A model generated the notes under the pieces. That model made no database searches. It saw nothing but the letters and a program-made list of their open reading frames with translations, and was not told the origin of the DNA. A stretch of DNA of 64,000 nt. Origin: Limnothrix sp. FACHB-406. GTDB taxonomy: Bacteria; Cyanobacteriota; Cyanobacteriia; CACIAM-69d. Both the position numbers and the translations under genes were made by a program. The stretch spans positions 186,001 to 250,000 of the forward strand of contig NZ_JACJSP010000002.1 in assembly GCF_014698235.1 (NCBI RefSeq). Direction: 5' to 3'. Positions 7,919-15,700 of the stretch are shown piece by piece; within the stretch, counting starts at the first letter, position 1; the number at the start of each line of letters is the position of its first letter.

Positions 7919-9526
7919 GTGACTACCGAAACCCTATCGCCCACCGTCGCTGCGCCTGACTCCCGAGTCAATCGCCAGTTCATCGCCATTTTGGACTTTG
8001 GCTCCCAATATTCCGAACTGATTGCCCGTCGGATTCGCGAAACCCAGGTTTATTCCGAAGTTCTGTCCTATCGCACCTCCGCAGAGCAACTGCGGCAACT
8101 TAGCCCCAAGGGCATCATTCTGTCTGGCGGCCCCAGTTCCGTCTATGCCGATGGTGCGCCCCTGTGTGACCCGGAACTCTGGAACCTGGGCGTTCCTGTG
8201 CTGGGCGTTTGCTACGGAATGCAGTTGATGGTGCAGCAGTTGGGCGGCCTCGTGGAAGCAGCCGATCGGGGCGAATATGGCAAAGCGGCCCTGTTTGTGG
8301 ATGATCCCACCGACTTGCTCACCAATGTGGAAGACGGTTCCACCATGTGGATGAGCCACGGCGATTCTTGCACCCAGTTGCCCAGCGGGTTTGAGGTTTT
8401 GGCCCACACGGACAACACCCCCTGCGCCGCGATCGCCGATCACCAACGCAAACTCTACGGCGTGCAATTCCACCCGGAAGTGGTGCATTCCGTCGGAGGG
8501 GCGGCCCTAATTCGCAACTTTGTTTATCACATCTGCCATTGCCAACCCACCTGGACCACGGAAGCCTTTGTGGAAGAGTCCGTGCGCGAAGTGCGGGCCC
8601 GCGTGGGCGATAAGCGAGTGCTGTTGGCCCTGTCGGGCGGGGTTGACTCTTCCACCTTGGCCTTTTTGCTGCACAAGGCGATCGGGGACAACCTCACCTG
8701 CATGTTCATTGACCAGGGCTTCATGCGCAAAGGCGAGCCAGAGCGCCTGTTGAAGCTGTTCCAAGAGGAATTTCACATTCCCGTGGAATATGTCAACGCC
8801 CGTCGCCGCTTCATCAATGCCGTGGATGGAGTTTCCGATCCTGAGCAGAAGCGCAAAATCATTGGCCATGAATTCATTGCCGTCTTTGAAGAAGAATCCA
8901 CCCGCTTGGGCCCCTTCGATTACCTGGCGCAGGGAACCCTGTACCCCGACGTGATTGAGTCGGCGGACACCAACATGGATCCCAAAACCGGCGAGCGCGT
9001 TGCCGTGAAAATCAAGAGCCACCACAACGTGGGCGGACTGCCAGACAACTTGCGCTTCAAGCTGGTGGAACCGCTGCGGAAGCTGTTCAAAGATGAAGTG
9101 CGCAAGGTGGGCCGGGCCCTCGGCTTGCCCGAAGAGATCGTGAAGCGGCAGCCCTTCCCCGGGCCGGGCTTGGCCATTCGGATCTTGGGCGAAATCACCG
9201 ATGAGCGGCTGGATATTCTGCGGGATGCGGATTTGATTGTGCGGCAAGAAATTAACCGCGCTGGCCTTTACAACGACGTTTGGCAGGCGTTTGCGGTGTT
9301 GTTGCCCGTGCGTAGTGTGGGGGTAATGGGCGATAAGCGCACCTATGCCTACCCGATCGTGCTGCGGATGGTGACCAGCGAAGACGGCATGACCGCCGAT
9401 TGGGCCAGGGTTCCCTACGATTTGCTGGAGACCATTTCCAACCGGATTGTGAATGAGGTGGAAGGGGTCAACCGGGTGGTCTATGATGTGACCTCCAAGC
9501 CGCCGGGAACGATCGAGTGGGAATAG
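7919..9526 (+). CDS. guaA: GMP synthase (glutamine-hydrolysing)
   Basis: 535 residues with a GTG start. The enzyme aminates XMP to GMP with ATP and glutamine in the cytoplasm. The N-terminal class I glutamine amidotransferase domain begins [21 protein letters not shown] and has the nucleophile Cys98 in GVCYGMQL and the partner His in VQFHPEV. The ATP-pyrophosphatase domain has the P-loop-like SGGVDSST. The C-terminal dimerisation domain ends with the family-typical [17 protein letters not shown]. It is full length with no anomaly. It stands alone between moaA (divergent) and a cation exporter gene (convergent). Confidence 0.98.
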
Positions 9527-9550
9527 GGCTGATTAGGGGTTAGCTCGATC

Positions 9551-9590
9551 GACCTTGATTAATCTTGATTGGTCTCGATTAACCTCGATT
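9551..9590. repeat. 10-bp tandem repeat after guaA
   Basis: Four consecutive decamers: gaccttgatt, aatcttgatt, ggtctcgatt, aacctcgatt. All share the core ct(t/c)gatt at one helical turn spacing. They lie 24 bases after the guaA stop. No terminator stem is associated with them. Confidence 0.7.
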
Positions 9591-9733
9591 CACGGAGCTT
9601 GATCGAGATCCCTTGAGGTCGATCGAACCAGGTGCTCTCCAAAGCAAACCCTTCAGCTTAACGAAATTTCCCCAATTAAACCGATCGCTCCCCAATTTCC
9701 CCGCTCAATTCGTTGATGCGGGGACGGTTATCC

Positions 9734-9784
9734 TGTGGAAAACTAAACATTTTCTGTGGAAAACTCGGCCGCTCTTGTGGAAAA
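9734..9784 (-). promoter_or_regulatory. Three DnaA-box-like sites at 21-bp spacing
   Basis: The word TGTGGAAAA occurs at 9734-9742, 9755-9763 and 9776-9784. Its reverse complement, TTTTCCACA, is the DnaA-box form reported for cyanobacterial replication origins. The three copies share orientation and are exactly 21 bp apart, two helical turns. They are followed at once by an AT-rich stretch (about 9785-9825). This could be a DnaA-binding locus or part of an origin. Because 21 bp is also seven codons, the array reads as a LWKT-containing heptapeptide repeat in one frame, but no supported gene covers it. Confidence 0.6.
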
Positions 9785-9816
9785 CTCAGGATTTTTAACC
9801 AATTATTAAATCTTCT

Positions 9817-10758
9817 TTAAACTTCCTTATGGGTGAGTGAGTCCATGCTGTAGGTCAACTGATCACTCTGATAACCGTTGGGTTCCACATGGATGGTCAT
9901 GCGCACGGGATGGTAGTGATCGCAAAGGGCTGACTCCACCGCTTCCGTGATGTCGTGGGCCCGGCGCACGTCCTCCGCCTCCACCACCAAATGCATTTCC
10001 ATAAAGACTTGCCGCCCCAATACGCCCCGTGAGGCGATGTCGTGGCAATTGACCACACCCGGCACGCTCATCACCAGACTGTGAATTTCTTCGGGGGGAA
10101 CAGCCATGGCATCAATCAACCAAGGCAGGTTCGATCGCAACACGTCCCAGCCACTCTTGAACACCAACAGGGCCACGGGGAACGCCAGGGCCACATCCAG
10201 CCAGCGCTGTCCCCACCAAACGCCCAATAACCCCCCAATCACGGTCATCGTGATCCATACGTCACCCATGGTGTGGCGAGCGTCGGCTAGCAGAATGTTG
10301 CTGTGGAGCTTTTGGCCCCAATGGCGTTCGTAGAGGGCCACCAAAATATTGATCCCCAACACCAGCACAGTCAGCCCGATCGCCGGGCCGGAGACGTTCA
10401 CGGCCTCGCCCTGGCCGGTTAATCGCTCGATCGCCCCCTGCGTAATTTCAAAGCAAGCCACTCCCAAAAACGCAGCGATCCCCAAGGCTCCCAGGGCTTC
10501 GTATTTCTGGTGACCGTAGGGATGTTCCCGATCGGGGCGAGGATCGGCGAGCTGGCTGGTAACCAACCCCAGCACGTTGCTGGCGCTGTCTGTCACGCTG
10601 TGCAGGGCATCGGCCAACAGGCTCAGGGAACCGGTGGCCCAACCCACGAGGGCTTTGATCACCAACACCAAAAGATTCAGCAGCAGCGTCAGCCACAGGA
10701 TATACCGAATCTTTCGCTGACGTTTATCGGGGCTAAGGAAACTGGCAGAGGCAGACAT
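9817..10758 (-). CDS. Cation diffusion facilitator family metal exporter
   Basis: 313 residues, inner membrane. Six hydrophobic segments span about residues 17-200, followed by a cytoplasmic ferredoxin-like domain of about 90 residues containing HDIASRGVLGRQVFMEMHLVV. The metal-site HxxxD signatures of CDF transporters are visible in TM2 (DALHSVTD) and TM5 (DARHTMGD). Members exchange Zn, Fe, Mn or Co for protons; the exact metal cannot be read from this sequence. The gene converges on guaA and its stop is 32 bases from the DnaA-box-like array. There is no linked metal regulator. Confidence 0.93.
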   Translation of the reverse strand: MSASASFLSPDKRQRKIRYILWLTLLLNLLVLVIKALVGWATGSLSLLADALHSVTDSASNVLGLVTSQLADPRPDREHPYGHQKYEALGALGIAAFLGVACFEITQGAIERLTGQGEAVNVSGPAIGLTVLVLGINILVALYERHWGQKLHSNILLADARHTMGDVWITMTVIGGLLGVWWGQRWLDVALAFPVALLVFKSGWDVLRSNLPWLIDAMAVPPEEIHSLVMSVPGVVNCHDIASRGVLGRQVFMEMHLVVEAEDVRRAHDITEAVESALCDHYHPVRMTIHVEPNGYQSDQLTYSMDSLTHKEV

Positions 10759-12710: not shown

Positions 12711-15700
12711 CTAATTGCTAAAAATAGACATGGCCTCGGCCTCATCCGTTTCGCTTTGAGATTGGGGTTTACGACCTAAGAGCCAATAGGTGGTCATCAT
12801 GCCGCGTCCTTTGACTTCCAGTTCACCGCGCGGCTCTAAGAGGAATTCTTGGCGCAAAATTTCGTAAACCGCTTCGGTAACCTGAATTTTGCCGGGTTCC
12901 CCCTGGGTTTCCATGCGGCTGGCCACGTTCACCGTGTCGCCCCACAGGTCGTAGGCAAATTTCTTGATGCCAATCACCCCGGCCACCACGGAGCCGGTGT
13001 TGATCCCAATCCGAATTTGGAAAGGCTTGCCACTGGGGGTGGTGAATTTGGAGATGGCCGCTTGCATGTCCAAGGCCAGTTGGGCCACGGCTTGCACATG
13101 GTCGGGCTTGGGGACGGGCAAGCCGCCCACGGCCATGTATTCGTCCCCGACGGTTTTGATTTTTTCGAGGTCGTGGTTTTCGGCCAGTTGGTCAAAGGTG
13201 GAGAAGATTTGATTGAGGAGGTTCACTAGCTCGATCGGGCGCATTTGGGCAGAAACGGGCGTGAAACCAACCAAATCGGCAAACAGAATAGTTGCTTCGG
13301 CATATTGTTCCGCCAAGGATCCTTCGCCCTGTTTGAGGCGCTCGGCAATCGCCTTGGGCAAAATGTTCAACAACAGGCGATCGGACTTTTCTTGCTCCAT
13401 CACCAGGGCTTCTTCCGCCTGTTTGCGCTCGGTGATGTTTTGGATCGTGCCTTCGTAATACAGCAGTCGCCCATCCCCATCGAACACTGTGCGGGCATTT
13501 TCGGAAACCCAAAAGGTATCGCCATCGCGATCGAACACTTGCGACTCAAAGTTATAGATCGTGCCTCGATCGGCAATGACCGTGAGGAAGCTGCCCCATC
13601 GTTCTGGATCCACATAGAATCGGCGGGTGCGGTTTAAGCCCAAGGGGCCGAGCATTTCCTCGATCGAGTCAAAGCCAAACATCTTGGCCAAGGATTGGTT
13701 ACCCCCCAAAAACTGACCATGGGGGGCGCACTGAAAAATCCCTTCCACCGCGTTTTCCACAATGCTGCGGTAGTTTTCTTCGGCCCGTTGCAAGGCCTCT
13801 TCCATTTGCTTGCGATCGGTCACATCCCGGGCCATCGCCAGGAAAATTTTCTGGCCTTGGGATTCGCGCATTCCCACCCGGGTTTCCACGGGCAAAGTGC
13901 GGCCGCTCTTGCAGCGATACATGCCTTCTACGGTCACGGGTTGCCCCGGTTTCATCATGGCCCAGATTCGATCGTGCTGATCCAAGGAAGCCAGGGTGTC
14001 GATCGCCCGCACATTCATTTGCAACAACTCCGCCTTGGAGTAGCCCAACACGGTGCAAACCTGTTGGTTCGCATCCAAAATTTGCCCATGCACGTCATGC
14101 ACCAACATCAGGTCGCCGCTGGCCTGTTCCGTCAGCATTCGGAATTGAGCTTGGCTTTCACTGAGGGCCTGTTCCGCCTGTTTGCGCTGGGTGATGTTGT
14201 CCGTAATGCAAAGCAAATAGGCCACGCCTCCGTTGGGATCAAACAGCGGCACTTTCACCGTGCGCAACACCAGGGATTCATTGGGCCCAGTCACCTGCTC
14301 TTCGGGAATTTCCAGCTCGCGCCGTTCTTCCACGGCCTGCACGTCCTGTTCCAGGATGGTGGTGGCTCGCTTAATGGGAAACAAATCATCGGCGTTTTTG
14401 CCCAATGCCCGATCGCGCGGAATGCCAAAGAGCTTTTCACTGGCTCGATTCCAGAGCACAAACCGGAAATTCTGCCGCACATCCTTGACATAAACCGCCA
14501 ACGGAATATGTTCAATAATGCCGTCGATGAAGCGCTTGGCCCGCAGCACCTCGGCAATCAGCCGCTTGCGCTCGGTGATGTCTCGAATCGCCAGAACGGC
14601 ACTGGTTTGGTTGTGGTTGGGTGCGCCGTCGGGATCCGGCAGCGTCACATTAGACCAAGCAATTTCCAGGGAATAGCGATCGCCCGCTGAGTTGTGAAAT
14701 TCATAAGCCGTGTTGCCCGAGCCGATTTCCAACGCCCGGGTGACCGGATGCAGAGGTGCTGGCAGTTGTTTGCCACGATGGATCAGAGGCAAGCAGTCAA
14801 TTAAATCTTGGCCAATGACTTGCTCATGGGACTGCTGGACTAACCGCTCAAAGGCAGGATTACACCATTGCACCTTGCCCGCTGGATCCGTCCAAACGAG
14901 GGCATCGCGTACGGAGCCAAGAACCGTTTCCAGCTTCTCTAGGGTCGATCGCAACTCATCGCGGGACACCTCCAACAGCGCCAAGGCCCGCCGCCGCTCC
15001 ATTTCCTCCAGGCGCTGTTGAGAATAGCGCAGGTCTTCTTCTAGGCCTTTGTAGTCCGTGATGTCATGGACTACCAACAGGGCGCATTCCATCCCGTGGA
15101 GGTAGAGCAACTCCGCCGACAGCAGCACCGTGCGGATATCTCGGCCCTTGGTGCGGACTGGAATTTCCTGGTTGCGGATGCTGCTGCCCCGTTGCAGGGC
15201 CTGCATCACGGCCAGGCGATCTTCCGCCCGCAGCCAGATGTTGAATTCCATGCTGGCAAAGCCCATCATTTCCTCGAAGCTATAGCCAAAAATGTCGAGG
15301 AAACTGTCGTTGAAGTCCAAAACGCAACTGTTATCCAGTTGCATCAGACAAATGCCGCTGGGGCTGGCGTAAAAGATTTTGGAAAACTTGGTTTCGGAAA
15401 GGCTGAGGGCGCTGGTGCGTTCACGGATGCGTTCTTGGAGGGTGTCCCGATCGCGCTCAAAGGCCGCCATGGCCGCCCGCAACTCTCGCATCATCAGCCG
15501 CACTTGGCGGGCCGCTTCATCTAGTTCTCGCAGACCCGTGGGTTCAATGGGCCCCGTAATGTGACCGCTGGCCATAGTTTGGGCCGTTTGGGCAAACCGG
15601 GCTAAGGGCTGCTCAATCAGCCGCAGCAATAACCAGGCCACACCCAGGGCACAGCCCAGGGAAAGGAAAAGAACGGCGACGGTGAGGGCATTGCTGCCCG

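Follow-up and report, generated by a model that had tools for sequence, protein, structure and literature searches.

Three head-to-tail DnaA boxes lying 3' of guaA in Limnothrix sp. FACHB-406 probably form a DnaA assembly site outside oriC that controls free or active DnaA, a reading to which we give a probability of roughly 0.6 and in which both the binding of DnaA and the effect on initiation are predictions. Arrays of this kind are kept in many cyanobacteria and lost together with dnaA, so that they look like replication control sites. How DnaA is controlled in cyanobacteria, many of which are polyploid and some of which are able to live without DnaA, is the question addressed here. The two studies of cyanobacterial DnaA that we searched give ChIP-qPCR measurements of DnaA binding only for oriC and one control locus, and no paper in the literature searched connects guaA, the DnaA box and cyanobacteria. 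Neither the arrays 3' of guaA nor a second class of arrays, upstream of genes encoding DUF2811 proteins, are described as off-origin sites in the papers searched.

The box array and its surroundings

The features of the locus are as follows.

7919-9526, plus strand: guaA, glutamine-hydrolysing GMP synthase, the conserved 5' neighbour of the array (NF000848/TIGR00884; co-location in relatives)
9734-9784, plus strand: DnaA-box array, three head-to-tail TGTGGAAAA boxes (sequence, exact search, conservation 3' of guaA in relatives)
9734-9742, plus strand: DnaA box 1, TGTGGAAAA (complement TTTTCCACA), exact match
9755-9763, plus strand: DnaA box 2, exact match
9776-9784, plus strand: DnaA box 3, exact match
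9788-9825, no strand: AT-rich run adjoining the array, 79% A+T, overlapping the 3' end of the CDF gene (base composition)
9817-10758, minus strand: CDF-family zinc efflux transporter gene (Cdf31 type), the convergent neighbour (NF052602)

A preliminary description of this DNA had reported three same-strand TGTGGAAAA sites with an exact 21-bp period, and an exact search of the window (the whole 64-kb stretch of DNA analysed) confirmed them, the boxes following each other in 21-bp steps with 12-bp gaps. The only further exact copy in the window is a single one at 13753-13761 on the minus strand, inside a large ORF. The array sits between guaA, which stops at 9526, and the convergent CDF gene, with its 3' end at 9817; searches of the locus found no intrinsic terminator, no promoter-like site and no Rfam match indicating a structured RNA. 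The assignment of the sites to the cyanobacterial form of the DnaA box also held, since the 9-mer is identical to the boxes in the genome's own oriC and its complement TTTTCCACA is the box reported for cyanobacteria, which DnaA binds at the Cyanothece oriC according to EMSA and footprinting (PMC4674748). Judged by sequence, the DnaA-binding reading of the array is well supported. The adjoining AT-rich sequence is real as well, and only 44 of the 63,961 40-mers of the window equal its best 40-mer in AT-richness. The run is common to the genus and present in some other families; in 39 distinct arrays 3' of guaA the A+T content is 58% after the boxes vs 55% before them, which rules out the run as a general component of the arrays.

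Conservation of the array 3' of guaA

We searched 388 cyanobacterial genomes for strict triplets, defined as three boxes with gaps of 9-13, and found them in 119 genomes, while the reversed pattern was found in none. Arrays stand at two to three places per genome, with none in reversed controls. When the positions of triplets, GuaA and DnaN were joined in 80 triplet-bearing genomes, a triplet lay 32-1090 bp 3' of guaA in 36 of the 80, a fraction that is no prevalence because these genomes were picked for having triplets; the array near guaA in relatives, proposed earlier as a check, is present. The triplet has the orientation of guaA in all 36 cases, and seven of the 80 genomes have a triplet at dnaN. 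Of 70 more guaA loci, most of them in genomes lacking a strict triplet, nine, all in families f16 and f24, had imperfect or wider arrays; no array was found outside these two families. Overall, the guaA array is spread over about ten cyanobacterial families, with Elainella, Trichocoleus, Oscillatoria and Phormidium tanganyikae among its named carriers. It is missing in Nostocales and many other families, though dnaA is present there, so that the array cannot count as a constant companion of guaA throughout the phylum. Mapped onto a GuaA tree, the array label takes 12 changes vs 32 in shuffles, none of 500 shuffles being as low, which indicates that the array is inherited and has been repeatedly lost or gained. 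The GuaA encoded on contig JAAUUT010000018.1 (L157), which is filed under Candidatus Gracilibacteria, groups with Xenococcaceae and other cyanobacteria of family f31, and this contig is probably a misbinned cyanobacterial one.

The 39 distinct guaA-3' arrays provided 77 box intervals, of which 65 measure 20-22 bp, four 10-11 bp, seven 30-31 bp and one 43 bp, values close to multiples of 10.5 bp. A lack of conserved 21-bp phasing in related genomes had been named as what would speak against the array; the phasing is conserved. In these arrays the spacers are nearly information-free, apart from a conserved pyrimidine before the 9-mer and a conserved C following it, the exactness of the 9-mer itself being a consequence of the search design. 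Different genes occupy the far side, convergent in 25 cases and co-directional in 15, and guaA has moved away in 11 arrays, which have remained next to the CDF gene or, for those of family f24, next to a coiled-coil gene. The conserved unit is the array, independent of either neighbouring gene.

A second array class, dnaA and DUF2811

A genome-wide join located 37 arrays (28 triplets and nine pairs) in 16 families at distances of 252-607 bp upstream of a gene for DUF2811 (PF10929), and all 37 are oriented away from DUF2811. The Limnothrix genome has its own member of this class, a four-box cluster at C10:28601-28663 (L039:3602-3664). Two off-origin arrays are conserved, one 3' of guaA and one upstream of DUF2811, and this pair offers exact targets for deletion. 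Other arrays lie near a SigA-like sigma-factor gene (L283, L284), a photolyase-like gene (L273, L275, where DUF2811 is also nearby) or a small gene of unknown function, and those of L257 and L259 are likewise near other genes.

The relation of the arrays to dnaA was followed in 13 genomes without dnaA whose completeness is 90% or more. Paired boxes at array spacing are found in none of 12 of these, and the exception (G299) carries a tandem repeat with identical spacers; pairs are present in 10 of the 11 dnaA-bearing genomes of families f31 and f35. These counts ignore phylogeny and cover mostly arrays other than the one at guaA, so that the dependence on dnaA supports the class of arrays and not the guaA array alone. 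The same contrast is seen within genera, G326 having dnaA and a triplet and G149 neither, and G347 having dnaA and a pair and both G353 and G383 neither. Boxes at guaA were found in none of the four dnaA-less genomes examined for them, whose families mostly have no guaA array anyway. Retention of such arrays is confined to genomes that retain dnaA.

DUF2811 is absent from 14 of the 388 cyanobacterial genomes, namely from 10 of the 13 near-complete dnaA-less genomes vs four of the other 375 (Fisher p 2e-14 for the joint absence, phylogeny ignored). The genomes lacking both fall into at least four separate groups (f32 g87, f32 g84, f36 and f42). Where DUF2811 is kept without dnaA, the upstream array is gone (G149) or down to one exact box (G383), and one genome with dnaA and no DUF2811 (G294) has no paired boxes. 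A relaxed Pfam scan with DUF2811 gave, beyond DUF2811 itself, chance-level matches only, and the literature searched holds no mention of it. The joint loss suggests that this small protein family, so far uncharacterised, may belong to the system, and we propose DUF2811 as a candidate DnaA-linked protein.

Alternative explanations and the assembly site

The array had been likened to a replication origin, and three ordered boxes adjoining an AT-rich run do recall one; however, a full oriC is found elsewhere in the genome. Eleven copies of the same 9-mer occupy C13:44875-45113, upstream of dnaN, with spacings in this region that are multiples of 10-11 bp, and they are followed by CTACTACTACTA, whose other strand reads TAG four times, the DnaA-trio motif of the basal unwinding system, BUS (PMC8287927). 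Cumulative GC skew, computed on contigs C2, C10 and C13 as assembled from stretches, turns near 40 kb on C13 and is flat around C2:195.7 kb, so that the skew check suggested earlier yielded no turn at the guaA array. The 11 boxes, the TAG repeats and the skew turn on C13 together place oriC most likely elsewhere than at the guaA array, and C13:44875-45164 (L038:3376-3665) is the probable oriC of this genome. The guaA array shares with a cyanobacterial oriC the 9-mer and the spacing in multiples of 10-11 bp, whereas an oriC carries numerous boxes, on either strand, together with DnaA-trios and a skew turn; the array has far fewer boxes, no DnaA-trios were found at 9500-10000, and the AT run is not kept with arrays. 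The array, on contig C2, also stands away from dnaN (C13:45502) and dnaA (C16:33834), as the preliminary description had stated. As far as the sequence tells, the guaA array is not an origin: trios, skew and context rule this out, and a second or alternative origin at this place is extremely improbable. Chance, or a functionless mobile or simple repeat, is just as hard to credit. Single copies of TGTGGAAAA are indeed spread over the 4.50-Mb genome, which has 72 exact copies vs 22 of a reversed control pattern, but they cluster at three places only, C13:44875-45113 (11 copies), C10:28601-28663 (four) and C2:195734-195784 (three). At this box density a genome would be expected to contain about 1e-7 such triplets, so that chance cannot account for the array, and the spacers are unrelated between genomes, so that the array is not a copied repeat; these unrelated spacers and the absence of triplets from the reversed controls exclude both variants, and the arrays vanish together with dnaA.

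The main rival to an off-origin assembly site, although an unlikely one in our judgement, is that DnaA on the array acts as a terminator or roadblock for RNA polymerase leaving guaA and ties GMP synthesis to the level of DnaA. The fixed orientation relative to guaA and the locus in which no intrinsic terminator was found would fit such a role, but the constant orientation may merely be common descent, arrays outlast the departure of guaA, in some cases next to a gene that now diverges from them, and the DUF2811 arrays precede a divergently oriented gene, a position in which a terminator would serve no purpose. In E. coli the gua boxes are located at the promoter and inside guaB, while here three boxes lie 3' of guaA. 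E. coli nonetheless offers precedents in the asnC terminator and in DnaA control of the gua operon, which share with our locus DnaA boxes 3' of a gene and the involvement of a gua gene, both of them cited in PMC10950094 and PMC11317965; the directionality of the asnC terminator is the subject of a paper cited in these articles. We regard as very improbable a promoter-proximal operator through which DnaA, or another factor using the 9-mer, regulates a neighbour such as the zinc exporter. DnaA is a transcription factor in other bacteria (PMC8203912), but the array is flanked by gene 3' ends on both sides and no promoter-like site was found there, and the downstream gene varies in identity and direction between genomes.

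We therefore favour the assembly site outside oriC. On the three boxes DnaA would assemble cooperatively into a head-to-tail oligomer along one face of the helix. This complex would either reduce the pool of DnaA for oriC through titration or ATP hydrolysis, in the manner of DnaA-box clusters or datA, or reset that pool, in the manner of DARS. Three boxes are few against the 72 exact copies in the genome, which makes plain bulk titration weak and a structured complex more likely. The preliminary description had offered an origin or a DnaA-titrating locus, and the second is the better half of that reading, the array being conserved, helically phased and of a kind seen only where dnaA exists, while the origin half is not supported. 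A wider cyanobacterial DnaA circuit may also be pictured, in which two off-origin arrays act with DUF2811 as a regulator and initiation in often-polyploid cells is tied to GMP supply by the guaA array, guaA read-through displacing DnaA; we consider this scheme quite doubtful.

Several known systems resemble the proposed site. The DnaA-box clusters (DBCs) of Bacillus subtilis (Okumura et al. 2012, as reviewed in PMC5295017) are clusters of consensus DnaA boxes outside oriC, few per genome. Here too, several consensus boxes, three exact ones, stand on a contig other than that of oriC, and they are non-coding and conserved beyond their surroundings, the boxes being kept while spacers and neighbours vary. 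Phylum and loci are different from those of the DBCs, and the present array is a head-to-tail, helically phased triplet at a conserved place. Compared with E. coli datA, an IHF-like site (TAAnnnnTTGATW, within one mismatch) was not found at 9500-10000, and the distance of the array to oriC varies among the few complete genomes that were compared, amounting to about 10% of the genome in G028 and G029 vs about 32% in G023, which rules out a constant distance from oriC among these. On the side of likeness, datA, DARS1 and DARS2 are non-coding DnaA-box loci off oriC in which boxes are kept and spacers vary (PMC4585315, PMC5295017). Moreover, datA is located downstream of a transcription unit, glyV-X-Y (PMC10950094), as the guaA array is located 3' of a gene, and DARS has a core of three DnaA boxes, the number found here.
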